Assembly: GCA_951812325.1 (NCBI GenBank)
Contig: OX638294.1
Span: 2,148,859 to 2,212,858 of the forward strand
Length of the DNA: 64,000 bases
Direction of reading: 5' to 3'
DNA from: an uncultured Thermoanaerobaculia bacterium
GTDB lineage: Bacteria > Acidobacteriota > Thermoanaerobaculia > Multivoradales > Multivoraceae
This document shows positions 39,025 through 63,970 of the stretch, piece by piece. How positions within the stretch are numbered: position 1 is the first letter of the stretch; the number at the start of each line of letters is the position of its first letter. Under the pieces are notes generated by a model. That model was not told the DNA's origin and searched no databases. It saw nothing but the letters and a program-made list of their open reading frames with translations. A program made the translations under genes and the position numbers.

Positions 39025-39063
39025 CGGTTTCCTCCATACGTTCTAGGCGCTGCTGGCCCATGG

Positions 39064-39125
39064 CAGCCCGTGGCAGAAGTGGTTGTGCGGCCCGAGCCGG
39101 GCGTCGCCGGGCCGTTGAGCTGCGG
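39064..39125 (-). mobile_element. Solo right end of the IS1182/IS5-like element (inverted)
   Basis: CAGCCCGTGGCAGAAGTGG and the following GC-rich bases match the terminal 40-60 bases of the right end of the element at 12280, in opposite orientation. It lies in the 420-base gap between the two LRR genes, where the 5' untranslated region of LRR protein 1 should be. Confidence 0.7.
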
Positions 39126-39142
39126 CTTCCTTGAAGCTTCCT

Positions 39143-39433
39143 TCATTGCGACGGTGAAGTCCGTTGCCGAGCGAAGCTGACCGTGAGGTGCGGCTGCGGC
39201 GAAAAGAACCCTGCCGAAGACGATCGTCCCCGTCCGATCGACCATCGACTCGTCGCTGGCAGGATGTTGGTGATTCCCGTTGCCGGTCCCGCAGCTGCCA
39301 GGAGCATGGCTACGGCAGTGCCAGGTTGACGACCGTAGAGGCCAGGAGCGCCGATGAGCTGCAGGAGGTCTGTATCTTTGTGAGCGAGATCGTCGCGAGT
39401 GGGAACTCCGTACATGCGTACCGTCAACGCCAC
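39143..39433 (-). pseudogene. Fragment of the metalloprotease-type N-terminal cassette
   Basis: Pieces in two frames resemble the start of the metalloprotease at 43720: AMLLAAAGPATGIT (signal region) in one frame, and DESMVDRTGTIVFGRVL in the next. The rest of the gene is absent. It fills most of the spacer between LRR protein 2 and LRR protein 1. Confidence 0.65.
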
Positions 39434-39445
39434 TGCTTGTGCGTG

Positions 39446-40492
39446 CTAGCACTTTGGCAGCTTGATGCCGCCTTGCTGCGGATTGATACGCCGCCTGAAT
39501 TCGCGCAAGTCCACGGGAATGCAACCGGTCAGCTGATTCTCCTCCAACGAAGACCCTAACCTTTTCAGGTTCGTCAACTGTCCTAACTCGGGCGGTATGG
39601 AGCCGTTCAGGAAATTGGACTCCAAGGAGAGCCTTGTCAGACCTTTCAACTGTCCTAACTCGGGCGGTATGGAACCACTCAGTTCATTGCGGGCCAACTT
39701 GAGCCACTCCAGGCTTTTCAACTGTCCTAACTCGGGCGGTATGGAGCCGCTCAGTTCATTTCCAGCCAATTTGAGCTCTATCAGGCTCGTCAACTGCCCC
39801 AACTCGGGCGGTATGGAGCCGCTCAGTTCATTGAAAGACAAGTCAAGCTCCGTCAGGCTCTTCAACTGTTTTAGCTCAGGTGGTATGGAGCCGCTCATTC
39901 TATTGGTCTCGGGTAATCTGGAGCTGAGGCCCAATGACGATGGCTTTCTCAAAGGGTCCTTCGCCCATTCTATCCTGTCAGCAATCGATGCAGCAACGTC
40001 CCTATGTGCCGGAGTCGAACCAGTCAAGCCATTCAATGAAAGACCCGCCACGCGATTGTTCAGTACCGTAATCCCGAACCAGTCCTCCATCTTGGTGTCA
40101 ACGGACCAGTTCAACGACGCGCTGCCGCGCAGGTCATCCATGAGGCCCAGCAGGGTTTTGCAGTCGGAAACGATGCCGGCTCCGGTATAGGAACTCACAG
40201 CGGTACTTCCTGCCGTACACAGCGACTGCGCGTGGGCGAGTTGCGTGGCGAGCAGGGGGGTGAGCAGAGCCAGGCCAAGGACGGAAGGCAGCAGCCGGGT
40301 GCAGCCTTGTCGGCGCGGGCTGTTGTTTGTGCGGCGGGTGTGTCGCCGGCCCTGCGGGCTGCTGGCAAGGGGCCGTCCTGGGAAAAGGGCCAAGCCGGCC
40401 AGCAGCCCTTTGGCGTGGTTTCGGTGGCACGCCGGCGAAGGCTTCAGTGTCCTGGAACTCTCGAGTATCTCCGGTGATTCAAGTGCGGTCAT
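39446..40492 (-). CDS. Secreted leucine-rich-repeat protein 2
   Basis: 348 residues, paralogue of LRR protein 1: same GGAGG-preceded start (MTALES at 40492), same long Arg-rich n-region, hydrophobic core LLPSVLGLALLTPLLA ending AHAQ, and the same terminal cap with TGCIPVDLREFRRRINPQQ. It has about five regular 24-residue LRRs (SGSIPPELGQLKSL) and an irregular segment before them (about residues 130-170). The frame remains open upstream to 40831, where an ATG with GGAG nearby starts MGKVKQPPLKARRR; a longer fused product of 461 residues is possible but lacks a signal at its start. Confidence 0.8.
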   Translation of the reverse strand: MTALESPEILESSRTLKPSPACHRNHAKGLLAGLALFPGRPLASSPQGRRHTRRTNNSPRRQGCTRLLPSVLGLALLTPLLATQLAHAQSLCTAGSTAVSSYTGAGIVSDCKTLLGLMDDLRGSASLNWSVDTKMEDWFGITVLNNRVAGLSLNGLTGSTPAHRDVAASIADRIEWAKDPLRKPSSLGLSSRLPETNRMSGSIPPELKQLKSLTELDLSFNELSGSIPPELGQLTSLIELKLAGNELSGSIPPELGQLKSLEWLKLARNELSGSIPPELGQLKGLTRLSLESNFLNGSIPPELGQLTNLKRLGSSLEENQLTGCIPVDLREFRRRINPQQGGIKLPKC

Positions 40493-41057
40493 CGGTTTCC
40501 TCCATACGTTGTTAGCTCCTTTTGTAGTATACGCCCGGTCCGGACTCGAAGTCGCAACAGATGCAACGATGCTCGGACACGCAACGCATATTAATGGGCA
40601 ACGGTTCACCTCTGGCAGAAAGGCGATCCCCAAGTTGTGACGCAGGTCTCTACGGTGTTGCGTAGGCGCCCGTCGTGTACATCGCAAGAGTGATGAGTAG
40701 GACAACGCAACGGCGAAGGAAGCCTGGCGGTTGGCGTTGCTGTCGGCGCCGATTTCGGCAAACACTCCGGGCTGTCCCTGGAGAACCGCACGCCTTCGTG
40801 CCTTGAGCGGAGGTTGCTTGACTTTGCCCATGAGGGTCTACTCCTTCGTTGGTTTCACCGACTCCGGGATTGGACTCGGCCATGGTGAGTGTTCGCTGAG
40901 CGAGCGGACGTCTTTTTGGAGAATCGTCCTGTTGGGCGGGGAGCTCCACCGGGGCAATGTCGAAGAGCGCGATCGTCGACGAATCGCGGCTACCTGAAGC
41001 GGGCGGTTTCGGTTTCATGTCGGCTCTGGCGATCTTGCTGCGTGAGAAGCCGACCCG
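40493..41057 (-). other. 565-base gap with two overlapping small candidate frames
   Basis: Two frames compete. One starts at 40831 (MGKVKQPPLKARRRAVLQ) behind GGAG and runs in frame into LRR protein 2. The other, 40650-41018, encodes 122 residues with TMAESNPGVGE in the middle and a hydrophobic C-terminus (VVLLITLAMYTTGAYA). The DNA around 40850-41018 is homologous to 57985-58170, where the same TLAMAESNPGVGE peptide is readable in a shorter frame, so the second frame may be a conserved small gene. I cannot decide between them. Confidence 0.35.
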
Positions 41058-44244: not shown

Positions 44245-45483
44245 TCACTGCTCTCCCGGCGCCGCCGTGGCGACTCCAGATCTCGCTGCTGAGCGTGCGG
44301 GCAACGCGGAAGCCGTTGTTGTTGTTCCGGTCTCCGGTCCTGTTCCTGTTGCGGTTCGCGGAGCGGAGGTTCCTCGGTTTGTTGTTCCAGGAACCGCCCC
44401 GAAGGACGCGACGGGGGGAGGGTCAGGCCCTTGCGACGGGTCGAACCACCCGTCGCGAAAGATCGCGTGACGCAGACGCCAGGTGTCCGCGTGTTCGGCG
44501 TGGGCGATCCAGCTCCGGATACGCCGTCGCACTTCGTCTTCGGACACCGTGCCGTGCCGCCAGCGGTCGCGCAGACCGCGCAGGCGGTTGCGGAAGCGGC
44601 GGACGTTCTCCTCGGGCAACCGCCTGCGGCCGCCGGGAAAGAGGACGAAGCCGAGAAACTCCACTGGCACGGCCGTCGCCTGGACTGAGGTCTTGCGCGC
44701 GTGGAGCCGCAACCGCCGCCCCTCCAGAAAGCGCACGAGACGCCCGCGCCACTCTTCCAGCCGTTCCCGGTTGTCGTGGAAGAGCGCGAAGTCGTCCACG
44801 TAGCGCACGTATCCCTTGGCACGCAGGACTTCCTTGACGAAGTGGTCCATGCAGTCCAGGTAGAGGTTCGAGAAGAACTGGCTGGTCAGATTGCCGATGG
44901 GCAGCCCGCGGCGCCGCTCAAGCGGCGTCAGCAGATCGTCGCCGGGAAAGAGCTGATAGACCGGCTCCTGCCGGTTGGCGCCGTCGATGATCCGGTCAGC
45001 GAGCTCCAGTGTGCGGTCGCAGGCGATGCGTCGACGCAGGTCCCGCTTCAGGATCTCGTGGTCGATGGCGGGGAAGTAGCGAAGAATGTCGCAGCGCAGA
45101 ACATGGCGGAAACGATCCCGGAACTTCTCGTAGCGGGCGACCGCGCGGTGCGTGCCCTTGCCCACCCGATTGGCGTAGCTGTCGTGAATGAAGCCGCGCT
45201 CGAAAATCGGCTCGCAGACGGCGCAGAAGGCATGGTGAACCACCCGGTCCCGAAAGGGGGCCGCGGAGACGATGCGATGCTTCGGATCGCGGATCTCGAT
45301 CTTCGTGTAGCGTCCCGGACAATAGCGGCCAGCGTGCAACTGCCGCTCGAGCCGCAGGACCTCGGTCTCGAGGTTGGCAAGAAAAGCGGCGACGCCCGGC
45401 TTCCCGCGCTTCGCCCGCGCGGCGCGCAGTGCGGCCGCATGCAGCGCCTCGAAGGAGGCGATGCGGTCGAACAGGTCAGGCAC
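44245..45483 (-). CDS. DGR reverse transcriptase RT1
   Basis: 412 residues from the GTG at 45483, which overlaps the avd1 stop. Motif A carries Asp 132 (RCDILRYFPAIDHE). The DGR-specific form of motif 4, LPIGNLTSQFFSNLYL, is at 194-209, where other RTs have QGxxxSP. Motif 5 is YVDDF at 228-232, and the thumb VEFLGFVLFPGG near 274. In DGRs this enzyme copies the template-repeat RNA with errors at adenines. Family length is about 350; the last 60 residues are an artefact-like tail because the frame reads on through TR1 before stopping at 44245. It is nearly identical to RT2, with changes such as Leu/Phe in motif A and Ala/Pro before RKTS. Confidence 0.93.
   Translation of the reverse strand: MPDLFDRIASFEALHAAALRAARAKRGKPGVAAFLANLETEVLRLERQLHAGRYCPGRYTKIEIRDPKHRIVSAAPFRDRVVHHAFCAVCEPIFERGFIHDSYANRVGKGTHRAVARYEKFRDRFRHVLRCDILRYFPAIDHEILKRDLRRRIACDRTLELADRIIDGANRQEPVYQLFPGDDLLTPLERRRGLPIGNLTSQFFSNLYLDCMDHFVKEVLRAKGYVRYVDDFALFHDNRERLEEWRGRLVRFLEGRRLRLHARKTSVQATAVPVEFLGFVLFPGGRRRLPEENVRRFRNRLRGLRDRWRHGTVSEDEVRRRIRSWIAHAEHADTWRLRHAIFRDGWFDPSQGPDPPPVASFGAVPGTTNRGTSAPRTATGTGPETGTTTTASALPARSAARSGVATAAPGEQ
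44291..44410 (-). repeat. DGR template repeat TR1
   Basis: 120 bases which, read on the minus strand in the target-gene frame, encode VLRGGSWNNKPRNLRSA, then NRNRNRTGDRNNNNGFR and VART. AAC codons cluster exactly where the target genes vary, as in known template repeats. It lies just downstream of RT1, whose open frame runs through it in another frame. It differs from TR3 at one base of the core: minus-strand G at 44332 where TR3 has A. The matching variable regions are 47596-47715 and 52282-52401. Confidence 0.9.
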
Positions 45484-45833
45484 CGCCACGACCGGCGTGC
45501 GCCTTTCCCCAGGCGCCGACCTTCCGCCCCGTCTCATCGATGGAACGCGCGGCATACTCGTAGCGACGCCGGTCAAGTGCGCGCAGATCGCAGGCCAGGC
45601 GGAACAGGAAACGGAGCTTCTCAAGCCCCAAGTTGGCGGCAGCGAGATGATCGGCTCTGCGCCGTGAGTAGGTCGCCTCGATCAAGTGTTCAAGGACGTC
45701 CAGTGCCGTGTCCTGGATCCGGTCTCCCAGCAGGAACTTGCGGCTCCGGGGGAAGCGCTCCACCACCGGCACGAGCCACAGAACGAACCGGTAGTGGGAC
45801 TCAAGAGCAGGACCGGTCGCTCTTGCCGCTCCC
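45476..45833 (-). pseudogene. avd: DGR accessory gene avd1, 5' end separated by an IS3-family insertion
   Basis: The body encodes HYRFVLWLVPVVERFPRSRK, FLLGDRIQDTALDVLEHLIE and LEKLRFLFRLACDL with DETGRKVGAWG, the four-helix bundle of the bAvd family that helps the RT bind template RNA. In unit II the gene starts at an ATG 26 codons before HYRF. In unit I that ATG and first codons lie at 47426-47481, beyond the IS. No ATG is visible in frame upstream of the body here, so expression would need a GTG inside it (45772) that omits the first helix start. The body itself is undamaged. Confidence 0.75.
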
Positions 45834-45872
45834 GGAACCTGGCAACGACATTGACACAGCGGTGTTCTGGAT

Positions 45873-46871
45873 TTACTGAGTCGTTTCTGCAGTCTCGCTG
45901 TCGGGTTTGTTGATCCATACAGCCTGGGGCAGTGTCGGATGCACGGGCACGCCGCCGCCGAATCGTTCAGGGTGGCGTTTCCAGGCTGCTCTCAGGGTGC
46001 GCTGGCGCTGCTCGATGACGGCATGGGCCCGGCCGTAGTGGACGGTCTCGGGTGTGAGCATGGCGATTCCGGCATGGCGGTGTTCCGTGTTGTACCAGGG
46101 GAAGAACGACCGGCAGTAGTCGGTCGCGGCGTCCTGGCCGGGGAAGCGGCCTGGGAAGTCGGGGTGGTACTTGAGGGTCTTGAACTGGGCTTCGGAGTAG
46201 GGGTTGTCGTCGCTGACCCGAGGGCGGCCGAGGGACCGGTTCACGCCGAGGCGCGCGAGCAGTTGAGCGGTGCCCTGGCTGGTCATGGGGGCGCCTCGGT
46301 CGGAATGCAGTGTCAGGACATCGGGCTTGACGCCGTGCTTGAGGCAGGTCTCCTCGATGAGCCTTTGGGCGAGCGCGGAGTTTTCGCGGTCAGCGACCAT
46401 CCAGCCGACCGCGTAGCGGCTGTAGAGGTCAAGCAGGACGTAGAGGTAGTAGTAGTTCCAGGTCTGCGGTCCGAGCAGCCTGGTGATGTCCCACGACCAG
46501 ACCTGGTTGGGCACGGTGGCGACCAGCTCCGGCTTGGCGTACTGCGGGTGAACCCGCTGGTTGCGGCGGTCCTTCACCGGGTGATTCGCTTCGAGAATGC
46601 GGTACATCGTGCGCTCCGAGCACAGGTACCGGCCCTCGTCGAGCAGGGTGGCCACTACTTCTCCCGGCGAACGATCGACGAAACGAGGCGACGCAAGCGT
46701 CGCCTCGACCCGTTTCCGCTCTACTTCGCTCAGTGCCCGGGCAGGCGTGGGGCGGGGCTGCCGTTGCCCGGGAGCGGGCCTCGCGCGACGATAGAAGGTC
46801 GACCGCGACACGCCCAGCGCCCGGCACGCCGGCGCGACGCCGACCTGCCGGGCCAGGGACCTTGCCGCCAT
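45873..46871 (-). CDS. IS3-family transposase OrfB (rve integrase domain)
   Basis: 332 residues from the ATG at 46871, which overlaps the orfA stop (TGATG). An N-terminal helix-turn-helix (CRALGVSRSTFYRR) is followed by the DDE core: Asp in VWSWDITRLLGP, Asp in LTLHSDRGAPMTS, and Glu in NPYSEAQFKTLKY. Catalyses strand transfer of the element. It appears intact. Confidence 0.9.
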   Translation of the reverse strand: MAARSLARQVGVAPACRALGVSRSTFYRRARPAPGQRQPRPTPARALSEVERKRVEATLASPRFVDRSPGEVVATLLDEGRYLCSERTMYRILEANHPVKDRRNQRVHPQYAKPELVATVPNQVWSWDITRLLGPQTWNYYYLYVLLDLYSRYAVGWMVADRENSALAQRLIEETCLKHGVKPDVLTLHSDRGAPMTSQGTAQLLARLGVNRSLGRPRVSDDNPYSEAQFKTLKYHPDFPGRFPGQDAATDYCRSFFPWYNTEHRHAGIAMLTPETVHYGRAHAVIEQRQRTLRAAWKRHPERFGGGVPVHPTLPQAVWINKPDSETAETTQ

Positions 46872-47351
46872 CAACAGTCCTTCCCGTCCTCGAGGCTGAA
46901 TCCCAGCAGCCCTGCAACTTTTCCCTGGACGTCCAGGATCGTGTGCGCGGCGGCGAGTTCCTTCTCCAGCCGCCTCACCTTCGCTTCCAGCCGCCTCACC
47001 TTCGGCGTCAGAGGGTTGGCCTCGACAGGCTTGCGGCCACGCTTCTTCGGCCTCAGACCGGACAGCGCGCCCTTCCGCCGCGCCTTGCGCCAGTTGGCCA
47101 GATGGGAACTGTACAGACCTTCTCGCCGAAGCAGCCGGCCCACTTCGCCGCGATCCGTGCACCGGTCCGCCTCCTCCAGAATCCGAAGCCGGTACTCCGC
47201 CGTGAACTGCCGCCGGCTTCGCCAGCACTTCCGGGTCGGGAACCCCTCCCGCAGACGACGCGCCGGCCCCGGGGGCCTCGTCGCTACGCTCCTCAACCCC
47301 CGGGGCCGGGAGCTCCGAGCCGCCGTCAAGTCTCTGCTCTCGTCTTGCCAT
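46871..47351 (-). pseudogene. IS3-family OrfA, frameshifted
   Basis: Starts at 47351 (MARREQRLDGGSE) behind GGAGG, reads to GGVPDPEVLAK, then needs a one-base shift near 47230 to continue as RRQFTAEYRLRILEEADRC. After that come LLRREGLYSSHLANWR (helix-turn-helix) and a leucine-zipper-like VRRLEAKVRRLEKELAAA. Without OrfA the element should not move on its own. The alternative start in the second frame (47329) would give an N-terminus unlike the family. Confidence 0.7.
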
Positions 47352-47531
47352 CGATCCTCCTCGCAAACGTGTGCCCTCCACTATTCAACGGGACGGCCCC
47401 TGTGTCACGTACGTTGGCAGAGAGGGCTCCCGCCCGTGCCGTCCGACGCTCTTGCTGTTCCCCCGACAAAGCTCTCTGCATGCCATGCCTTCCTCGCCAC
47501 AGCCGAAAGCGACTGCAACCCGGGCGCCGGA

Positions 47532-47586: not shown

Positions 47587-48858
47587 TCACGGGGTGAGCG
47601 TCCGGGCAACGCGGAAGCCGTAGTTGAGGCTCCGGTATCCGGTCCAGCTCCTGAAGCGGGACGCGGAGCGGAGGTTCCACGGTGGGTAGTTCCAGGAACC
47701 GCCCCGAAGGACGCGAAAGGAACAGTTACCGAGCAGCCAGGCGCTGCCGTCGGACGGCGCCCCAACGTAGCTCCCGTTCCAGCAGTCCTCAACCCACTCA
47801 TATACGTTGCCATGCATGTCGTGCAAACCAAACGCGTTTGCAGCAAACGAACCCACTGGCGCCGTCCTGTCATCGTCCCAACGGCTACCGCAACCATCGC
47901 AGTTCGCACGGTTATCACCAATCTCATCGCCCCAACTGTACGCCGTGCGGCTCCCAGCCCGAGCAGCGTACTCCCACTCCGACTCGCTCAACAACCGATA
48001 CTCGAAACCCGTCTCCGCCGAAAGCCACGCAACGTACTCCTGCGTGTCCTCCCAACTCACCCGCACCACAGGACGATTGCCGCGACCCCAACCCGCATCA
48101 TCTGGAACATGACGGCAACCGCCAGCCTCCACGCATGCATCCCACTCAGAAAACGTCACCTCGTACTTCCCCACCGCAAGAGGCGCCGGAATCGTCACCG
48201 TATGCACCGGAAACTCATAGCTCGAGCACCCCACGCCCGACACACAGCCCATCTCAAAACTGCCGGCCGGAATCACGGCCGACTCCGGACCACCGCCGAC
48301 GGCGCCACTACATCTGAAGGCGCTCGTATCGCTCCTGGTTGGAGCTGTCGTGCCCGCCTCGTTTGTATGAGTCCAGGTGTCCCCGTCCGGCCCGGTGACC
48401 CGAAGCTCGAAGCCGAGGTCCGTCACCGGCGCCACGAAGACCCATCGGTGACCGTTGTACTCGCAACCGTCCAGCACCTTGACCAGAACCTCGGCGTTCT
48501 CACGGCTGAAGAACCAGAGAATCCCGGATTGACTGGAAGCCCATACACCTGCCCGCGCCTGCCCCGTCTCGCCTTCGACGGTGATGTAGCACATGCGAAC
48601 CCTGTAGCCGCCGTCGAACTGAAGCACGTCGGACGTCGGCGTACAAGGGCCGTCCGTCGAAGAGCTGCCAACCGGAATCACGACCAACTCCGGACCACTG
48701 CCGCCTGAACGCAGAGCATCGCGAACGCTCGCCAATGGCGATCCTTCGTCGGCCCCCAAAGCAGCCGAATCCGCCACCTCCTCCTGACGCGACTGTGCAG
48801 CGACTGGACTGGTGAACATCGCGAAAGCGATCGTTGCGCCGACAAACAACTTGAACAT
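47587..48858 (-). CDS. DGR target protein 1: secreted VKVLDG domain plus FGE/C-type-lectin-like variable domain
   Basis: 423 residues. Signal peptide MFKLFVGATIAFAMF ending VAAQ; about 60-190 is the VKVLDG domain (GILWFFSRENAEVLVKVLDG), ending TNEAGTTAPTRSDTSAFRC. About 196-423 is an FGE-sulfatase/SUMF1-type fold: HTVTIPAPLAVGKYEVTFSE, RPVVRVSWEDTQEYVAWLS, SEWEYAARAGSRTAYSWGD and LHDMHGNVYEWVEDCW. This C-type-lectin-like fold is a classic DGR target. Residues 382-421 are the variable region (WNYPPWNLRSASRFRSW, then TGYRSLNYGFRVART). The protein is probably exported and displays a diversified binding surface; its ligand is unknown. A conserved inverted repeat lies 27 bases upstream. Confidence 0.9.
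   Translation of the reverse strand: MFKLFVGATIAFAMFTSPVAAQSRQEEVADSAALGADEGSPLASVRDALRSGGSGPELVVIPVGSSSTDGPCTPTSDVLQFDGGYRVRMCYITVEGETGQARAGVWASSQSGILWFFSRENAEVLVKVLDGCEYNGHRWVFVAPVTDLGFELRVTGPDGDTWTHTNEAGTTAPTRSDTSAFRCSGAVGGGPESAVIPAGSFEMGCVSGVGCSSYEFPVHTVTIPAPLAVGKYEVTFSEWDACVEAGGCRHVPDDAGWGRGNRPVVRVSWEDTQEYVAWLSAETGFEYRLLSESEWEYAARAGSRTAYSWGDEIGDNRANCDGCGSRWDDDRTAPVGSFAANAFGLHDMHGNVYEWVEDCWNGSYVGAPSDGSAWLLGNCSFRVLRGGSWNYPPWNLRSASRFRSWTGYRSLNYGFRVARTLTP
47596..47715 (-). repeat. DGR variable region VR1
   Basis: 120 bases aligned without gaps to the template repeats. By hand alignment the core differs from TR3 at 15 positions, all template adenines (for example AAA to CCA, AAC to TTC, AGG to TGG). 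Against TR1 one of these is a G-to-T change. Two further differences lie in the last 15 bases (CGC/CGG and AGC/ACC), the region where the initiation site differs between template and target. Confidence 0.88.
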
Positions 48859-48989: not shown

Positions 48990-49090
48990 CCAAAGGGGCC
49001 AGACCTCTTGGAATTCCCAAAAGAGGTGAAGAAATGAAGACTCACGAGGTGAGCGTTCGAGCAACGCGGAAGCCGAAGTACCTGCTGGTG
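48990..49090 (-). pseudogene. Relic of an FGE-type C-terminus with decayed hairpin, behind the unknown secreted gene
   Basis: At 49042-49075 the minus strand reads FGFRVARTLTS then stop, the exact ending of the target proteins. A decayed hairpin (CCAAAGGGGCC / CCTCTTGG-type arms at 48990-49011) follows at the expected distance. The sequence before it does not align to the template, and no target gene is attached. Confidence 0.7.
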
Positions 49091-50700: not shown

Positions 50701-50705
50701 CGCGG

Positions 50706-51767
50706 TCAGACCCCCCGCGACAGGACGAACCACCCGCCGCGAAAGATCGCGTGACGCAGACGCCAGGTGTCCGCGTGTTCGGCGTGGGCGATCCAGCTCT
50801 GAATACGCCGCCGCACTTCGTCTTTGGACACCGTGCCGTGCCGCCAGCGGTCGCGCAGACCGCGCAGGCGGTTGCGGAAGCGGCGGACGTTCTCCTCGGG
50901 CAACCGCCTGCGGCCGCCGGGAAAGAGGACGAAGCCGAGAAACTCCACTGGCACGGCCGTCGCCTGGACTGAGGTCTTGCGCGGGTGGAGCCGCAACCGC
51001 CGCCCCTCCAGAAAGCGCACGAGACGCCCGCGCCACTCTTCCAGCCGTTCCCGGTTGTCGTGGAAGAGCGCGAAGTCGTCCACGTAGCGCACGTATCCCT
51101 TGGCACGCAGGACTTCCTTGACGAAGTGGTCCATGCAGTCCAGGTAGAGGTTGGAGAAGAACTGGCTGGTCAGATTGCCGATGGGCAGCCCGCGGCGCCG
51201 CTCAAGCGGCGTCAGCAGATCGTCGCCGGGAAAGAGCTGATAGACCGGCTCCTGCCGGTTGGCGCCGTCGATGATCCGGTCAGCGAGCTCCAGTGTGCGG
51301 TCGCAGGCGATGCGTCGACGCAGGTCCCGCTTCAGGATCTCGTGGTCGATGGCAGGGAAGTAGCGAAAAATGTCGCAGCGCAGAACATGGCGGAAGCGAT
51401 CCCGGAACTTCTCGTAGCGGGCGACCGCGCGGTGCGTGCCCTTGCCCACCCGATTGGCGTAGCTGTCGTGAATGAAGCCGCGCTCGAAGATCGGCTCGCA
51501 GACGGCGCAGAAGGCATGGTGAACCACCCGGTCCCGAAAGGGGGCCGCGGAGACGATGCGATGCTTCGGATCGCGGATCTCGATCTTCGTGTAGCGTCCC
51601 GGACAATAGCGGCCAGCGTGCAACTGCCGCTCGAGCCGCAGGACCTCGGTCTCGAGGTTGGCAAGAAAAGCGGCGACGCCCGGCTTCCCGCGCTTCGCCC
51701 GCGCGGCGCGCAGTGCGGCCGCATGCAGCGCCTCGAAGGAGGCGATGCGGTCGAACAGGTCAGGCAC
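50706..51767 (-). CDS. DGR reverse transcriptase RT2
   Basis: 353 residues from the GTG at 51767, overlapping the avd2 stop. Motif A RCDIFRYFPAIDHE, DGR motif GLPIGNLTSQFF and YVDDFALF are all intact, and length is typical of DGR RTs. The last residues (GGWFVLSRGV) differ from RT1 because a deletion removed the following template repeat and replaced the end. With its own avd2 uninterrupted, this is the best candidate for an active enzyme in the window, but it must use a template transcribed from another unit. Confidence 0.93.
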   Translation of the reverse strand: MPDLFDRIASFEALHAAALRAARAKRGKPGVAAFLANLETEVLRLERQLHAGRYCPGRYTKIEIRDPKHRIVSAAPFRDRVVHHAFCAVCEPIFERGFIHDSYANRVGKGTHRAVARYEKFRDRFRHVLRCDIFRYFPAIDHEILKRDLRRRIACDRTLELADRIIDGANRQEPVYQLFPGDDLLTPLERRRGLPIGNLTSQFFSNLYLDCMDHFVKEVLRAKGYVRYVDDFALFHDNRERLEEWRGRLVRFLEGRRLRLHPRKTSVQATAVPVEFLGFVLFPGGRRRLPEENVRRFRNRLRGLRDRWRHGTVSKDEVRRRIQSWIAHAEHADTWRLRHAIFRGGWFVLSRGV

Positions 51768-52167
51768 CGCCACGACCGGCGTGCGCCTTTCCCCAGGCGC
51801 CGACCTTCCGCCCCGTCTCATCGATGGAACGCGCGGCATACTCGTAGCGACGCCGGTCAAGTGCGCGCAGATCGCAGGCCAGGCGGAACAGGAAACGGAG
51901 CTTCTCAAGCCCCAAGTTGGCGGCAGCGAGATGATCGGCTCTGCGCCGTGAGTAGGTCGCCTCGATCAAGTGTTCAAGGACGTCCAGCGCCGTGTCCTGG
52001 ATCCGGTCTCCCAGCAGGAACTTGCGACTCCGGGGGAAGCGCTCCACCGCCGGCACGAGCCACAGAATGAACCGGTAGTGGGACTCAAGAGCAGGACCGG
52101 TCGCTCTTGCCGCTCCCGCCCGTGCCGTCCGACGCTCTTGCTGTTCCCCCGACAAAGCTCTCTGCAT
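51760..52167 (-). CDS. avd: DGR accessory protein Avd2
   Basis: 135 residues from the ATG at 52167 (MQRALSGEQQERR). The first 27 residues are an Arg/Ala-rich extension. The bAvd four-helix bundle follows: HYRFILWLVPAVERFPRSRK, DRIQDTALDVLEHLIEATYS, LEKLRFLFRLACDLRALDRR and IDETGRKVGAWG. Avd forms a pentameric barrel that binds template RNA and RT in studied DGRs. The stop overlaps the RT2 GTG, so the two are translated together. It is the only undamaged avd of the three copies. Confidence 0.87.
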   Translation of the reverse strand: MQRALSGEQQERRTARAGAARATGPALESHYRFILWLVPAVERFPRSRKFLLGDRIQDTALDVLEHLIEATYSRRRADHLAAANLGLEKLRFLFRLACDLRALDRRRYEYAARSIDETGRKVGAWGKAHAGRGGA

Positions 52168-52272: not shown

Positions 52273-53547
52273 TCACGGGGTGAACGTCCGGGCAACGCGG
52301 AAGCCGATGAAGTTGCCCCGGCTGCCGGACCTGAGCCAGTTGCGGTTCGCGGAGCGGAGGTACCTCGGATCGAAATTCCAGGAACCGCCCCGAAGGACGC
52401 GACGGGAACAGTCACCGCGCAGCCAGGCGCTGCCGTCGGACGGCGCCCCAACGTAGCTCCCGTTCCAGCAGTCCTCAACCCACTCATATACGTTGCCATG
52501 CATGTCGTGCAAACCAAACGCGTTTGCAGCAAACGAACCCACAGGCGCCGTCCTTTCAAAGTCCCAACGGCTACCGCAACCACCGCAGTTCGCACGGTTA
52601 TCACCAATCTCATCGCCCCAACTGTACGCCGTGCGGCTCCCAGCCCGAGCAGCGTACTCCCACTCCGACTCGCTCAACAACCGGTACTCGTACCCCGTCT
52701 CCTCCGAAAGCCACGCAACGTACTCCTGAGTGTCCTCCCAACTCACGCGCATCACCGGACGATTGCCGCGACCCCAACCCCAATCATCCGGAACATGACG
52801 GCAACCGCCAGACTCCACGCATGCATCCCACTCCGAAAACGTCACCTCGTACTTCCCCACCGCCAAAGAAGCCGGAATCGTCACCGTATGCACCGGAAAC
52901 TCGTCGTCGTCACACAACACGCTGTCCGATACACAGCCCATCTGAAAACTGCCTGCCGGAATCACGGCCGACTCCGGACCACCGCCGACGGCGCCACTAC
53001 ATCTGAAGGCGCTCGTATCGCTCCTGGTTGGAGCTGTCGTGCCCGCCTCGTTTGTATGAGTCCAGGTGTCCCCGTCCGGCCCGGTGACCCGAAGTTCGAA
53101 GCCGAGGTCCGTCACCGGCGCCACGAAGACCCATCGGTGCCCGTTGTACTCGCAACCGTCCAGCACCTTGACCAGAACCTCCGCGTTCTCCCGGCTGAAA
53201 AACCAGAGAATCCCGGATTGACTGGATGCCCATACGCCTGCCTGCGCCTGTCCCGTCTCGCCTTCGCCGGTGATGTAGCACATGCGAACCCTGTAGCCGC
53301 CGTCGAACTGAAGCACGTCGGACGTCGGCGTACAAGGACCGTCCGTAGAAGAGCTGCCAGCCGGAATCACGACCAACTCCGGACCACTGCCGCCTGAACG
53401 CAGAGCATCGCGAACGCTCGCCAAGGGCGATCCTTCGTCGGCCCCCAAGGCAGCCGAATCCGCCACCTCCTCCTGAGGCGACTGCGCAGCGACTGGACTG
53501 GTGAACATCGCGAAAGCGATCGTTGCGCCGACAAACAACTTGAACAT
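52273..53547 (-). CDS. DGR target protein 2: secreted VKVLDG plus FGE/C-type-lectin-like variable domain
   Basis: 424 residues, the same architecture as target 1 and almost identical to it up to the variable region. One notable difference is the segment CVSDSVLCDDDEFPVHTV where target 1 has CVSGVGCSSYEFPVHTV. Variable-region residues are WNFDPRYLRSANRNWLRSG then SRGNFIGFRVART. Signal peptide MFKLFVGATIAFAMF. Four-residue and single-residue differences from target 1 outside the variable region are few, so most divergence between the paralogues is concentrated in the variable region. The gene precedes avd2-RT2. Confidence 0.9.
   Translation of the reverse strand: MFKLFVGATIAFAMFTSPVAAQSPQEEVADSAALGADEGSPLASVRDALRSGGSGPELVVIPAGSSSTDGPCTPTSDVLQFDGGYRVRMCYITGEGETGQAQAGVWASSQSGILWFFSRENAEVLVKVLDGCEYNGHRWVFVAPVTDLGFELRVTGPDGDTWTHTNEAGTTAPTRSDTSAFRCSGAVGGGPESAVIPAGSFQMGCVSDSVLCDDDEFPVHTVTIPASLAVGKYEVTFSEWDACVESGGCRHVPDDWGWGRGNRPVMRVSWEDTQEYVAWLSEETGYEYRLLSESEWEYAARAGSRTAYSWGDEIGDNRANCGGCGSRWDFERTAPVGSFAANAFGLHDMHGNVYEWVEDCWNGSYVGAPSDGSAWLRGDCSRRVLRGGSWNFDPRYLRSANRNWLRSGSRGNFIGFRVARTFTP
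52282..52401 (-). repeat. DGR variable region VR2
   Basis: 120 bases, gap-free against TR3. By hand alignment 16 core differences fall at template adenines (AAC to TTC, AAA to GAT, AAC to CTC, ACC to TCC, GGA to GGC and others) and one does not (AAC to AAT). At the site where TR1 has GAC, VR2 has AGC, a single A-to-G step from TR3's AAC. Confidence 0.87.
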
Positions 53548-53678: not shown

Positions 53679-53779
53679 CCAAAGGGGCCAGACCTCTTGG
53701 AATTCCCAAGAGAGGTGAAGAAATGAAGACTCACGAGGTGAGCGTTCGAGCAACGCGGAAGCCGAAGTACCTGCTGGTG
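53679..53779 (-). pseudogene. Second relic of an FGE-type C-terminus with decayed hairpin
   Basis: Near-identical to 48990-49090: FGFRVARTLTS and stop at 53731, with the same decayed hairpin. It was duplicated with the unit. Confidence 0.7.
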
Positions 53780-55398: not shown

Positions 55399-55650
55399 GC
55401 GCCAAAGGCCCACGAAACCGGGTCAAGCTCACAACCCCAACTCTGAAGCAACCGACCGGCCCGGAAAGCAGAACCACTTCTGCCACGGGCGCCTGAGCCC
55501 TGACGGTGTGCTGCCACGGCAACGCCCACCCCTCCCCCGCCCAGCTACCGCGAGCGGGGCAAGAGGGGCGGCGCCGTGGTTTCATCATGACTCTCCCTGG
55601 ACGCTCACTGCTCTCCCGGCGCCGCCGTGGCGACTCCGGCTCTCGCTGCT

Positions 55651-55770
55651 GAGCGTGCGGGCAACGCGGAAGCCGTTGTTGTTGTTCCGGTTTCCGGTCC
55701 TGTTCCTGTTGCGGTTCGCGGAGCGGAGGTTCCTCGGTTTGTTGTTCCAGGAACCGCCCCGAAGGACGCG
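55651..55770 (-). repeat. DGR template repeat TR3
   Basis: 120 bases, identical to TR1 in the core except for A at the minus-strand position 55692 (codon AAC instead of GAC). Encodes NRNRNRTGNRNNNNGFR after WNNKPRNLRSA. It lies behind the wreck of RT3, so it has no enzyme of its own, yet it explains both VR1 and VR2 better than TR1 does. Confidence 0.9.
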
Positions 55771-56085
55771 ACGGGGGGAGGGTCAGGCCCTTGCGACGGG
55801 TCGAACCACCCGTCGCGAAAGATCGCGTGCCGCAGACGCCAGGTGTCCGCGTGTTCGGCGTGGGCGATCCAGCTCCGGATACGCCGTCGCACTTCGTCTT
55901 CGGACACCGTGCCGTGCCGCCAGCGGTCGCGCAGACCGCGGAGGCGGTTGCGGAAGCGTTCCTGCCGGTTGGCGCCGTCGATCATCCGGTCAGCGAGCTC
56001 CAGTGTGCGGCCGCAGGCGATGCGTCGACGCAGGTCCCGCTTCAGGATCTCGTGGTCGATGGCGGGGAAGTAGCGAAGAATGCGC
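55771..56085 (-). pseudogene. RT3, reverse transcriptase relic lacking the catalytic core
   Basis: Two RT pieces remain. One runs from ILRYFPAIDHEILKRDLRR to DRMIDGANRQE and is joined at about 55960 directly to RFRNRLRGLRDRWRH and the C-terminus. The first 130 residues with the motif A Asp, and the segment from QLFPGDD through GNLTSQ and YVDD to the thumb, are gone. The remaining sequence is almost identical to RT1, so the deletions happened after duplication. Confidence 0.85.
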
Positions 56086-56545
56086 CGCCACGAGCGGCGT
56101 GCGCCTTTCCCCAGGCGCCGACCTTCCGCCCCGTCTCATCGATGGAACGCGCGGCATACTCGTAGCGACGCCGGTCAAGTGCGCGCAGATCGCAGGCCAG
56201 GCGGAACAGGAAACGGAGCTTCTCAAGCCCCAAGTTGGCGGCAGCGAGATGATCGGCTCTGCGCCGTGAGTAGGTCGCCTCTGCGCCGTGAGCAGGGTCG
56301 CCTTGATCAAGTGTTCAAGGACGTCCAGTGCCGTCTCCTGGATCCGGTCTCCTGGCTGGAACTTGCGGCTCCGGGGGAAGCGCTCCACCACCGGCACGAG
56401 CCACAGAACGAACCGGTAGTGGGACTCAAGAGCACAGGACCGGTCGCTCTTGCCGCTCCCGCCCGTGCCGTGCTTCGCTCTTGCTGTTCCCCCGACAAAG
56501 CTCCCTGCATGCTATGCCATCCTCGCCACAGCCGAAGCGACGGCA
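56086..56545 (-). pseudogene. avd: avd3 relic
   Basis: The start region (MQGALSGEQQERSTARAG) is readable at about 56510, then a two-base insertion near 56435 shifts the frame. VVERFPRSRKFQPGDRIQET is readable, followed by a short internal duplication (CTCTGCGCCGTGAG twice at about 56255-56295). The last part LEKLRFLFRLACDLRALDRR to GRKVGAWGKAHAARGG is in frame again and then fuses to RT3. Not functional as written. Confidence 0.75.
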
Positions 56546-59031: not shown

Positions 59032-60312
59032 TCAGTCCATCTGCTTGCGCAGCACGGTCGGGATGTCGTAGTCGTCGTTACCCTGCCAGTTGACGCCGTA
59101 GGGGTCCGGCTTGATCTCATGGGTCTCGGCGCGCAGGCGATCACGGAAGTCCGGGTTGCCGCCCGGGTCCTGCGCCGCTCTCTCCCCGGAGGTCGCCGCT
59201 GGCGCCGGGTTGGCGGCAGCGAGACCAGCCGGCGAGTCCGCCCCCCCCGCGTCCGCCTCGACGTCCGCAGGCTGCGGCGCCGAGCCGTCCACATGGGGCT
59301 GCCGGTCTTCGGCGAAGCCGGTCGCGATCACGGTGACCTTCATCTTCTCGTCCATCGTCTCGTCGACCACGAGGCCGGAGATGATGTTCGCGTTCGGGTC
59401 CACCGCCTCGGTGACCATGCGGGCGGCCTCGGCGACCTCGTGGAGCGTCAGGGAGCTGCCGCCCGTGATGTTGATCAGGCAGCCGCGGGCGCCCTCGATC
59501 GAGGCGTCCTCGAGCAGGGGCGAAGACACGGCGCCCTGGGCCGCTTCGAGAGCCCGGTTCTCGCCCGACGCCAGACCGGTGCCCATCACCGCGATCCCCT
59601 GACCGCACATGATGGCCCGCACGTCCGCGAAGTCGGCGTTGACCTCGCCCGGCATCGTGATCAGGTCACTGATGCCCTGCACCGACTGGCGGAGCACGTC
59701 GTCGGCAGTGAGGAAGGCCTCCGAGATTGCCGTGCCCCGATCGACGAAGCTCAGCAATCGCTCGTTCGGGATCGCGATCACCGTGTCGACGGCCTTGTGC
59801 AGCTCTTCCAGGCCCCGCTCCGCGATCAGCATCCGACGCCGGCCCTCGAACGCGAACGGCTTCGTGACCACGGCGACCGTCAGCGCTCCGACCTCCGCCG
59901 CCAGGGAGCCGATGATGGGCACCGCGCCCGTGCCGGTGCCGCCGCCGAGCCCTGCCGCCAGAAACACCATGTCGGCGCCGCTCAGCACATCGAGCACCTT
60001 GTCCGTGTCCTCCAGGGCCGAGTTGCGCCCGATGTCCGGATCGGCGCCGGCGCCCAGACCGCGAGTGATCTTGCGGCCGAGCTGAAGCTTCTTCTCCGCC
60101 TGACAGCGCCGGAGCGCCTGCAGGTCCGTGTTGGCCGCGATGAACTCGATGCCGCTCAGCTGGCTGGCGATCATCCGGTTGACGGCATTCCCGCCGCCGC
60201 CGCCGACACCGACGACCTTGATCCTGGCCGGACCGAAGCTGTCCTCGGAGGATGTTGTCTCATCGATCATCGGTTCCGTTGCGGCCGACTGCTGTTGTTC
60301 CATCAGAATCAT
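59032..60312 (-). CDS. ftsZ: Cell-division GTPase FtsZ
   Basis: 426 residues. The tubulin signature [12 protein letters not shown], the N-terminal [16 protein letters not shown], the T7 region [11 protein letters not shown] and the C-terminal conserved peptide [13 protein letters not shown] are all present. A Pro/Ala/Gly/Glu linker (about 335-405) is of ordinary length. FtsZ forms the division ring. The start is the ATG at 60312; an in-frame ATG three codons later is possible. It is the last gene of the minus-strand division cluster and borders the accessory island. Confidence 0.97.
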
Positions 60313-60353
60313 GGCACTCTCACTTTCGAACCCTCCGGTTCAGTAACTCAAGG

Positions 60354-61607
60354 TCAGAGAAGATCGCTGAACATCTGGCGCAGGCTGCCCACCATCCCGC
60401 GCATTCCGCGGGCGCGGCCCTGGCGTACGAGAGGCGACCGGGCCTGCTCCATGGCAACGGCGTAGCGCACCAGACCGGCCGCTGTAGACCACGTCGGATC
60501 GGCAAGACCCTGGTGGATCTCGCTGGTGAAACCGAGCGGCACCCCGTAGCGCGCGTCGCAGGAAAAGAACTGCTGGGCCAATTCGGGGAGACCGGCCAGC
60601 TTCGAGCCGCCGCCGCTGAGGACGATTCCGCCCCGGAGCTGCTCGGCGCAGCCCGCCTTCTCCAGCTCGACCTGGACGAGATGGAACATCTCTTCGGCGC
60701 GGGCCTGCAGGATCTCGGCGAGCCGAGCCCGCGCAATCGTCCGGCTGGCGCCTCCCCCTACGGACGGCACCGCCACTCCCTGGTCGCCGTCAACCAGACC
60801 GGGGAGGCAGCTGCCGTGACGGAGTTTCAGCGTTTCGGCGCCGGCGAACGAGGTACGCAGCACCGAGGCCAGGTCGGCCGTGAAGTGGCTGGCGCCGAAC
60901 GGAAGGACGCCGCTGTGCTGAACTTCCGACTGGTGAAAGAACGCGAAGCCGCAGGTGCCGGACCCGATCTCCAGCATCAGGACACCGAGTTCGCGCTCAT
61001 CGCGGAGCAGGACCGCCTGCGCCGTCGCCAGCGGCTCGAACACGACCTCCGTCGCCTCCACGCCGGCCTGGTTCAGGCAACGGACCAGCGTCCTCGTTCG
61101 CGGTGCGTGCCCCATGACCAGGTGAACCTTGGCCTCGAGACGGCTTCCGAGCATGCGCTGGGGGTCGGCTATGCCGCCGTGGTCGTCGACCGCGAACTCC
61201 TGCGGGATCGCCTGCAGGATCTCGCGGTCGGGAGGAAGCGGCACGTCGCGGGCGGCGTTCAGAACCAGATCGATGTCAGCGCGCGTTACGCCCCCGTCAC
61301 CGTTGTCGATGTAGGCCGTGCCGTGACTGTTCGCGGAGCGCACATCGCTGCCGCCGACACCGACGTAGGCGCGGGAAATCTCGGTTCCCGCCATCGCCTC
61401 GGCTTCCTCGGTAGCCCGACGCAGCGCCTTGACCGTCGCATCGACGTTCACGATGTGGCCCTTCAGCGTGCCGCGGTTGGGCGCCCTGCCAGCCCCCACG
61501 ACCTTCAGACCGGGCTCTCCGTCGATCTCCGTCCGCTCCACGATCAGAACGGCGACCTTCGCCGAGCCGACATCAATGGCTACCAAACGTGTGTCCGTCT
61601 TCGGCAT
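60354..61607 (-). CDS. ftsA: Cell-division protein FtsA
   Basis: 417 residues of the actin-like fold: VAIDVGSAKVAVLI (phosphate 1), LEIGSGTCGFAFFHQ and VLSGGGSKLAGLPEL (adenosine). The C-terminal RGMVGSLRQMFSDLL is the amphipathic helix that ties FtsA and FtsZ to the membrane. It ends 41 bases before ftsZ. Confidence 0.95.
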   Translation of the reverse strand: MPKTDTRLVAIDVGSAKVAVLIVERTEIDGEPGLKVVGAGRAPNRGTLKGHIVNVDATVKALRRATEEAEAMAGTEISRAYVGVGGSDVRSANSHGTAYIDNGDGGVTRADIDLVLNAARDVPLPPDREILQAIPQEFAVDDHGGIADPQRMLGSRLEAKVHLVMGHAPRTRTLVRCLNQAGVEATEVVFEPLATAQAVLLRDERELGVLMLEIGSGTCGFAFFHQSEVQHSGVLPFGASHFTADLASVLRTSFAGAETLKLRHGSCLPGLVDGDQGVAVPSVGGGASRTIARARLAEILQARAEEMFHLVQVELEKAGCAEQLRGGIVLSGGGSKLAGLPELAQQFFSCDARYGVPLGFTSEIHQGLADPTWSTAAGLVRYAVAMEQARSPLVRQGRARGMRGMVGSLRQMFSDLL

Positions 61608-61625
61608 CCTCTCGTCCTTCCCCTG

Positions 61626-62552
61626 TCAAGAGGGATCTCCATCCGTCACACCGTCCGCCGGACCGCCGCCACCCGGCGCTTCGGCCGACAGCACGATCCG
61701 GTCCCTGAACCGCAGGTCGACGACCTCGGGATCGCTCTGTTCGCTGATCGCCGCCTGCAGCAGATCGAACACCGAGCCCTTCGCGGTCAGATCGCTCCCG
61801 CGCACCAGGACGGTCGCCGGTCGGCCGCTGCGCTCGAGCAGGTAGTCGTCGTCGCTCAGGACGCCGACCGCGAACACCTCGCGGCCCCACTCGAACGACC
61901 TCACCTCGCTCCAGACGTCGATGGCCTGTTTGAGCGTCCGGGCAAGCAGTTCGCCCGAACCGTCCCTCGAAGCCGATCCCGCAACACCCGGATTCCGCGC
62001 CGGACTCTCCGCGGCTCGCTTCCCGAGCAACGCACTCTGAATCGACACCCGAACCAGGGCGTTGCCGGCGCCTGCGACCGCATTGCCGTCGCAGAGATCG
62101 GCAGCCCGCTCGCACGCCACGATCGTCCTGCCTTCACGATCGAGAATCCACGAGCGATCCCCGGCCTCGAACACCGCCGCCGGCACGTGCTCCACGATCC
62201 TCACGTCGAGCTGGTTCGGCAGCCTCCTCACCAGCTTCGCTTCACGCACCCAGTCGTGTTCGAGCTGCACCGCGGCGCTCTCCAGAGAGAGCAGCGGGAG
62301 GTTGCGTCCCACCAGGCCGGCAAGCCGGCCGCGCACCCACTCCCCGGACACCCTCGGCCCCGTCTCGACCCCGATGTCGGGCTTCACATCGAACGCCGGC
62401 GCCGTCACCAGCCACACGCCGACCGCCGCCACCGGCGCCACGCCCAGAAGCACCTTGCCGACTCCCATCGCAAGCCAGACGACGGGCCCCGCGCGACGAC
62501 GGCGCACGGTCCGGCGCCCAACGAGAGGCAGCCCGGTCCTGCCGCGCCTCAT
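61626..62552 (-). CDS. ftsQ: Cell-division protein FtsQ/DivIB
   Basis: 308 residues. Arg-rich cytoplasmic start, one membrane helix (VGKVLLGVAPVAAVGVWLV), then a POTRA-type domain with LPLLSLESAAVQLEHDWVRE and RRLPNQLDVRIVEHVPAAVF, and a beta domain to the C-terminus. It links late division proteins in the periplasm. The start overlaps the murC stop; murB and ddl, often located between them, are absent here. Confidence 0.9.
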   Translation of the reverse strand: MRRGRTGLPLVGRRTVRRRRAGPVVWLAMGVGKVLLGVAPVAAVGVWLVTAPAFDVKPDIGVETGPRVSGEWVRGRLAGLVGRNLPLLSLESAAVQLEHDWVREAKLVRRLPNQLDVRIVEHVPAAVFEAGDRSWILDREGRTIVACERAADLCDGNAVAGAGNALVRVSIQSALLGKRAAESPARNPGVAGSASRDGSGELLARTLKQAIDVWSEVRSFEWGREVFAVGVLSDDDYLLERSGRPATVLVRGSDLTAKGSVFDLLQAAISEQSDPEVVDLRFRDRIVLSAEAPGGGGPADGVTDGDPS

Positions 62553-63970
62553 CTTCCGTTCTCCCCATCAGCCACCAGGAGTCGGGCCAGACGGTAGATA
62601 TCCCCGGCCCCGAGCGTCAGGATCATGTCGCCCTCGCGGACGGCCGCGCCGAGGCGCTCCGGGGCCATGCGCCAGGGGCCGCAACCCTGGACGCTGGTGT
62701 GGCCGCCGCCGACCGCCGCCGCGACCACCAGACTCCCATCCACCCCGGGAAGCGGTTGCTCGCGAGACGGATAGATGTCGGTGACCAGGGCGTTGTCGGC
62801 GAGCAGCAGGGCACGGCCGAAGTGGTCCGCAAGGTCCCGCGTCCGACTGAACAGGTGGGGCTGAAACACGGCGTGAAGGCGGCGCGGCCGCCCACCCTCC
62901 CGCTTGAGATCCAACACTTCGCGAGCCGCCCGCAGGGTGGCCTCGACCTCGGTCGGATGGTGCGCGTAGTCATCGACCACGGTCGCTCCCTGCCAACTGC
63001 CGACGCGCTCGAAGCGCCGGTGAACGCCGGTGAACCCGGCCAGCGCATGAGCGGCCGTCTCGAAGTCGAGCCCGACCGCCCGCGCCGCGGCCACCGCCGC
63101 CAACGCGTTCAGGACGTTGTGTCGACCGGGCATCGGCAGTTCGAGCTGGCCGAGACGACCCGCGGCCGAATCGACGACCTCGAAGCGCACCCCCGCGGCA
63201 ACGGGCTCGACATGGAACGCCCGCAGATCCGCCCGGGCGCCGAACCCGTAGGTCACGATGCGCCGGTCCCCGAGGCGCAACAGGATGTCCCGCACGTTCC
63301 GGTCGTCCATGCAGGCGATGACCTGACCGAAGAAGGGAACCCGGCTGGCAAAGCGCACGAAGGCATCCTTGATGTCGGCCAGGTCGCGGTAGGTGTCCAG
63401 ATGATCGACATCGATGTTCGTGATCACGGCGACCACCGGCGCCAGATCGAGAAAGCTGCGGTCGAACTCGTCCGCCTCGGCAACCAGGTAGTCGCCCCTG
63501 CCGTGGCGCGCCCCCGTGCCGGACACACGGAGCCGGCCGCCGACGACGACGGTCGGGTCGAGACCCGCCCCGGTCAGTACGCTGCCCACCAGCGAGGTCG
63601 TCGTCGTCTTGCCGTGCGTCCCCGCCACGGCGATGCCGTACTTGAGCCGCATCAGCTCCGCCAGCATCTGCGCTCTGCGCACGATCGGAACGCCGCGACG
63701 ACGGGCCGCGACGACCTCTTCGTTGTCGGCGGGGACGGCCGAGGAAACGACGACCAGGTCGGCTTGCGCCACGTTCTCCGCGGAGTGGCCGAGAGAGACG
63801 GACGCACCGAGTTCAACCAGCCGCCGTGTCGTCCCGCCGGCCTGCAGATCGGAGCCGCTGATCGCCAGATCGTAGTTCAGCAGGACTTCGGCGATGCCGC
63901 TCATTCCGGCGCCGCCGATGCCCACGAAGTGGATCCGTTCGAGACCCGCGGTGCGCAGGAACAGCGGCAT
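62549..63970 (-). CDS. murC: UDP-N-acetylmuramate--L-alanine ligase
   Basis: 473 residues. HFVGIGGAGMSGIAE at the N-terminus, the ATP-binding GTHGKTTTTSL near 113, the central NIDVDHLDTY and NVLNALAAVAAA, and VVDDYAHHPTEV in the C-terminal domain. Adds L-alanine to UDP-MurNAc in peptidoglycan synthesis. Its ATG overlaps an upstream stop by one base (TGATG). Confidence 0.96.
   Translation of the reverse strand: MPLFLRTAGLERIHFVGIGGAGMSGIAEVLLNYDLAISGSDLQAGGTTRRLVELGASVSLGHSAENVAQADLVVVSSAVPADNEEVVAARRRGVPIVRRAQMLAELMRLKYGIAVAGTHGKTTTTSLVGSVLTGAGLDPTVVVGGRLRVSGTGARHGRGDYLVAEADEFDRSFLDLAPVVAVITNIDVDHLDTYRDLADIKDAFVRFASRVPFFGQVIACMDDRNVRDILLRLGDRRIVTYGFGARADLRAFHVEPVAAGVRFEVVDSAAGRLGQLELPMPGRHNVLNALAAVAAARAVGLDFETAAHALAGFTGVHRRFERVGSWQGATVVDDYAHHPTEVEATLRAAREVLDLKREGGRPRRLHAVFQPHLFSRTRDLADHFGRALLLADNALVTDIYPSREQPLPGVDGSLVVAAAVGGGHTSVQGCGPWRMAPERLGAAVREGDMILTLGAGDIYRLARLLVADGENGR

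Follow-up and report, generated by a model that had tools for sequence, protein, structure and literature searches.

TR1, the template repeat (TR) of the only complete avd-RT-TR cassette in this diversity-generating retroelement (DGR), carries a G that is very probably derived, and the template that wrote most of the variable regions (VRs) of the genome very probably bore A at the same base. This conclusion applies to the allele and not to the locus of TR3, the orphan template repeat in which A is found. Both repeats lie in the window, by which we mean the whole 64,000-nt stretch of DNA that was analysed, and the system to which they belong is a duplicated, partly decayed DGR, of a known kind and of modest novelty.

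Cassettes, enzymes and targets

Four cassettes (A-D) of one ancestry could be recognised (see Table 1 for the features in the window). Cassette A is complete and has the order target 1, transposase insert, avd1, RT1 and TR1. Cassette B, which holds VR2, consists of target 2, avd2 and RT2 and has no TR, a 389-nt gap replacing it, while cassette C comprises target 3, a broken avd3, an RT3 with two deletions and TR3, which has no working avd or RT alongside. Cassette D (C1:2414.3-2416.9 kb; C1:2414300-2416900) has a target and a decayed RT. Duplication thus extended to the TR-less cassette type, since B and D have the same TR deletion junction.

Table 1. Retroelement features of the window (positions are those of the window)
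Feature	Position	Strand	Description
TR3, orphan template repeat	55651..55770	minus	120 nt compared; A at 55692, codon AAC
TR1, template repeat of the complete cassette	44291..44410	minus	G at 44332, codon GAC
Diagnostic base in TR3	55692	minus	A (T on + strand)
Diagnostic base in TR1	44332	minus	derived G (C on + strand); synonymous in RT1 ORF (third position, GAG)
Target gene 1, FGE-sulfatase domain PF03781	47587..48858	minus	VR1 at 3' end, 47595-47716; Pfam and TR match
Target gene 2, FGE-sulfatase domain PF03781	52273..53547	minus	VR2 at 3' end, 52281-52406; Pfam and TR match
Target gene 3, FGE-sulfatase domain PF03781	56605..57894	minus	VR region unlike the template save at its 3' end; 25 nt match TR3
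avd1, retroelement accessory protein	45476..45802	minus	bAvd PF22296, E 1.5e-18; start codon provisional
RT1, intact	44245..45480	minus	PF00078; IGNLTSQ 44898, YVDD 44802; ORF passes through TR1; actual start a little upstream of 45480
Insert between target 1 and avd1	45835..47425	minus	transposase-like ORF 45873-47381, integrase core
avd2	51760..52086	minus	intact, by translation
RT2, intact core	50706..51764	minus	PF00078, YVDD 51086; without TR: 389 nt including TR deleted at 50704/50705
avd3/RT3 remnant upstream of TR3	55788..56461	minus	avd frame disrupted by 23 additional nt; RT deletions of 392 and 367 nt remove the catalytic motifs
Conserved 36-nt element 3' of TR3	55611..55646	minus	10-bp covarying hairpin; covariation 0.81 vs 0.28 shuffled
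Equivalent 36-nt element downstream of TR1	44251..44286	minus	T at 44280, T at 44278

The system is a DGR, with the RT motifs, Avd, VRs that depart from the TR at template adenines and FGE-like targets all present. The motifs IGNLTSQ and YVDD are found in both RT1 and RT2, IGxxxSQ being typical of DGR RTs, and PF03781 reaches the C terminus in the three targets of the window, in keeping with the 3'-terminal placement of the VR in a DGR target gene. A chimeric origin of RT1 was also considered and set aside; the site patterns show only that units A and C are near-identical in the vicinity of the TR and differ more further out. Upstream of targets 1 and 2, at 49055-49074 and 53744-53763, there are VR-like 3' ends (GGCTTCCGCGTTGCTCGAAC) of degraded target copies. 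Two leucine-rich-repeat genes with 72-nt tandem repeats (37501-40831) adjoin the retroelement region, and a division/cell-wall cluster with ftsZ, ftsA and a Mur ligase gene (59032-63970) borders the retroelement cluster.

This DGR resembles that of Bordetella phage BPP-1 (avd-TR-brt) in having an RT, Avd, a TR, a target with a 3'-terminal VR and adenine-specific change, as well as in the structured RNA 3' of the TR (PMC12875486), which is here a predicted hairpin. Unlike BPP-1, in which one TR precedes the RT and there is one target, the TR here follows and overlaps the RT ORF, and there are at least 11 targets and several cassettes. Cellular DGRs with FGE-type targets (Binatia, Alphaproteobacteria, Latescibacteria, Nitrospira and others), whose RTs are mostly 60-75% identical, likewise have the TR after the RT, the same repeated AAC plan and the same post-TR hairpin; however, nearly all of those loci differ from this genome in having one TR, with A at the test base.

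Comparison of TR1 with TR3 and polarity of the diagnostic base

TR1 and TR3 are identical at 119/120 bases of the core, the single mismatch being 44332 G/55692 A in the minus-strand reading (GGA GAC CGG in TR1, GGA AAC CGG in TR3), and within the transferred region this is the sole base that distinguishes them. The sequence-only reading had reported this one-base difference, GAC against AAC, and we could confirm it along with the deductions drawn from it, namely that the TAC of VR1 and the AGC of VR2 can be reached from TR3 via template adenines alone, while from TR1 the former requires G>T and the latter G>A plus A>G. The G of TR1 is synonymous in the RT1 frame that overlaps it (GAG vs GAA, both Glu), and protein sequence therefore does not explain the change.

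Searches with the RT led to 38 loci from many phyla, and the TRs beside those RTs provided a 30-taxon alignment in which the diagnostic base is A in all 30 TRs of other taxa. In a separate tally A was present in 28/29 TR-like sequences, the exception being TR1. A congeneric genome, that of an uncultured Thermoanaerobaculia bacterium (Acidobacteriota) from another species of the genus and here called G016, has exactly one TR, which is identical to TR3 over 141 nt and lies beside the same RT3 remnant. Based on the A in 30/30 TRs of other taxa and in the sole TR of G016, these alignments show the ancestral template to have carried A and the G of TR1 to be derived, and the direction of the A-to-G change previously proposed for TR1 is supported.

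We dropped selective conservation as an explanation for the identity of TR3 with the TR of G016, since the dead RT3 around TR3 is equally identical (0 differences in about 1600 nt between the two genomes); the identity thus says little on selection. The avd-RT of G016 (C6 about 106662; L039 near 9313) ends immediately before YVDD, where other sequence takes over; the missing remainder is absent from the whole G016 genome, and the DGR of this species looks dead. A Spirochaetia MAG also has two TR copies (L068, 6319-6425 and 8514-8636), of which one is on the opposite strand and has small deletions, and orphan decaying templates may be common.

Further mismatches between TR1 and TR3 lie just 3' of the 120-nt core, at 44280/55640 and 44278/55638, in a 36-nt element that aligns gap-free across 30 sequences from DGR loci of many phyla; these two sites border the hairpin that the element forms. 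In its 10-bp hairpin 92% of cells are paired, and the covariation given in Table 1 compares with values of 0.22 or less when slid. The T of TR1 at 44280 occurs in 0/30 other taxa and the T at 44278, which changes a C-G pair to U-G, is the state in 7/30 taxa, while TR3 has the commonest base at both sites and has kept the whole covarying hairpin. By this measure, TR3 would be no worse a template RNA than TR1. A search of Rfam found no family matching the region of the element. In BPP-1 the complex of RT and Avd is recruited by RNA that lies 3' of the TR (PMC12875486); the hairpin described here is probably part of the template RNA and is a candidate for the same recruiting role.

States of the test codon in the variable regions

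A BLAST search of the whole genome, a single 4.63 Mb contig containing the window, with TR3 as the query identified two TRs and eleven full-length VRs in total; nine of these VRs are outside the window, and no TR was found near them. The test codons of the eleven VRs are TAC, AGC, GAC, GCC, CTC, GTC, TTC, GAC, AAC, CGC and CAC, with first bases T, A, G, G, C, G, T, G, A, C and C, respectively. The test base is therefore non-G in 7/11 VRs (P about 2e-6 for at least 7/11 under an immutable template G), differs in this from the non-adenine core sites (Fisher P 3.6e-6) and is not unusual compared with other template-adenine sites (Fisher P 0.34, this genome), although these P values are indicative since the VRs are paralogues and related sequences are counted as independent. 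Changes are present at 201/319 of the other adenine sites in the VRs of this genome versus 34/495 of the non-adenine core sites. VRs fixed at G, which the sequence-only reading had named as the evidence that would speak against it, are thus not what the eleven VRs show, and its choice between a mutation of TR1 after the last diversification and the use of TR3 is supported, the VRs being free at this base and the G of TR1 derived. On the usual DGR model, A was present in the template from which VR1, VR2 and no fewer than five of the remote VRs were last written. The G arose later, by a point mutation in TR1, the repeat of the only complete cassette; how this mutation is timed relative to each VR is inferred.

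The variable core of VR1 differs from the template at 15/30 adenines and 0/45 other sites and that of VR2 at 16/30 adenines and 1/45 other sites, and the VR at C1:3867943 also has 0/45 non-adenine changes in its core. Based on this lack of non-adenine change, VR1 and the VR at C1:3867943 look youngest and are the likeliest of the VRs to have homed recently; their test bases are T and C, respectively, and not G. VR2 and the VR of cassette D have a common C-to-T mark and neighbouring states at the 5' end, and they differ further 3', including at the test codon (AGC vs GTC), which suggests a rewriting of the 3' part after duplication.

The four G-first VRs (GAC, GCC, GTC and GAC) are compatible with TR1, of which there may have been some use. 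Across both genomes G occupies the test site in 9/18 cases, whereas the other adenines in first position give 25% (uncorrected P 0.02). We considered whether this excess might mean that TR1 and TR3 are both in use, and set the idea aside because two other adenine columns are equally G-rich and misincorporation has been documented to depend on context (PMC12875486). The six VRs that were compared at the 3' edge all have G where both TRs carry C, a candidate IMH/IMH* difference of the kind that would spare the TR from being a target itself. A search of IMG/VR found no copy of this TR in viral contigs. In other species of the genus there are eight loci (L105-L112) with an almost identical VR, changed at 14-16/30 adenine sites and 2-5/45 others; an RT search found no RT in these species, and the loci look as if one diversified VR had been frozen after loss of the retroelement.

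Choice of template and its meaning

TR3, TR1 before its mutation and a lost TR2 are inseparable as loci because all would leave the same A mark in one genome. Consequently, the proposal of the sequence-only reading that TR3 is the parent of both VRs stands for the A-bearing allele, given that 7/11 VRs are non-G, and does not stand for the locus, which any template with A would fit. It is close to an even chance that VR1 and VR2 go back to TR1, acting in cis before it mutated and lost its A, with TR3 a silent relic. Only the cassette of TR1 combines avd, RT and TR, and, with the two repeats otherwise identical in the transferred region, one later point mutation is enough. However, the core of VR1 is free of non-adenine change, so its homing was recent and the mutation of TR1 must be still later; in addition, the 3' element of TR1 bears other derived bases and the transposase insert splits target 1 from avd1-RT1. 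A possibility that we hold somewhat more tentatively is that TR3 is the template now in use, read in trans by RT1 and/or RT2, while TR1, little used, drifts. TR3 has kept the commonest base at three sites where TR1 departs, plus the whole covarying hairpin, cassettes B and D exist without a TR, and there is an inferred precedent in Thiohalocapsa PB-PSB1 (PMC10907252), but the dead RT3 beside TR3 is equally conserved. Also favouring TR3 is the intact core of RT2, which differs from RT1 by 6 synonymous and 5 replacement changes (pS 0.023, pN 0.006), whereas the truncated RT of G016 has pN about equal to pS versus RT1 and about half of pS versus RT2, a dN/dS contrast that is built on 11 differences.

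It is improbable that the VRs were written by a third template with A, either the deleted TR2 or another lost copy. While units B and D each once had a TR position, since deleted, and VR2 sits in unit B, such a template must have equalled TR3 in the core, given the lack of non-adenine changes in VR1 and in the VR at C1:3867943, and the deletion is old enough to be common to two cassettes. An assembly or consensus error at 44332 is very improbable: duplicated units about 96-99% identical favour such errors and the position was read from the assembly only, but TR1 and TR3 are on one contig with distinct flanks and seven differences in 566 nt. As the template of the latest homing events, TR3 and pre-mutation TR1 have about even claims. 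Template use in trans is likely, because TR3 is without a working avd or RT while RT2 and cassette D have lost their TR, although VR2 and the remote VRs may have been written by earlier templates in cis. TR3 is alone among the surviving copies in having the ancestral sequence; it has kept its 3' RNA element, its own avd and RT are dead, and to function it would have to be read in trans by RT1 or RT2.

The nine-locus DGR set of Thiohalocapsa sp. PB-PSB1, for which trans activity was inferred (PNAS 2024, PMC10907252), is similar to the system described here in its duplicated and in part incomplete DGR loci, in the transposons among the loci and in VRs that agree with a TR located elsewhere at all non-adenine sites. 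Template choice was read there from non-adenine matches between TR classes and from metagenomes; in this genome, unlike in Thiohalocapsa, near-identical TRs differ at one mutable base and the VR states themselves exclude one allele.

Adenine mutagenesis of AAC gives 15 possible residues and that of GAC gives four (Ala, Asp, Gly and Val), to which the test codon would be limited if TR1 is used henceforth. Since TR1 can give only GNC and TR3 gives NNC, VR variants in a population would directly report cis versus trans template use. Template choice in a multi-copy DGR is normally invisible because the copies are identical, and the one mutable base lost in one copy is a natural tag of that choice. 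It is possible, although we would put it below even, that the orphan TR3 serves in trans about a dozen target genes genome-wide while TR1, in the only complete cassette, is decaying. If TR3 does so, the A/G difference records template choice in every new VR. The system also illustrates that template and enzyme can separate while the targets spread across the genome.
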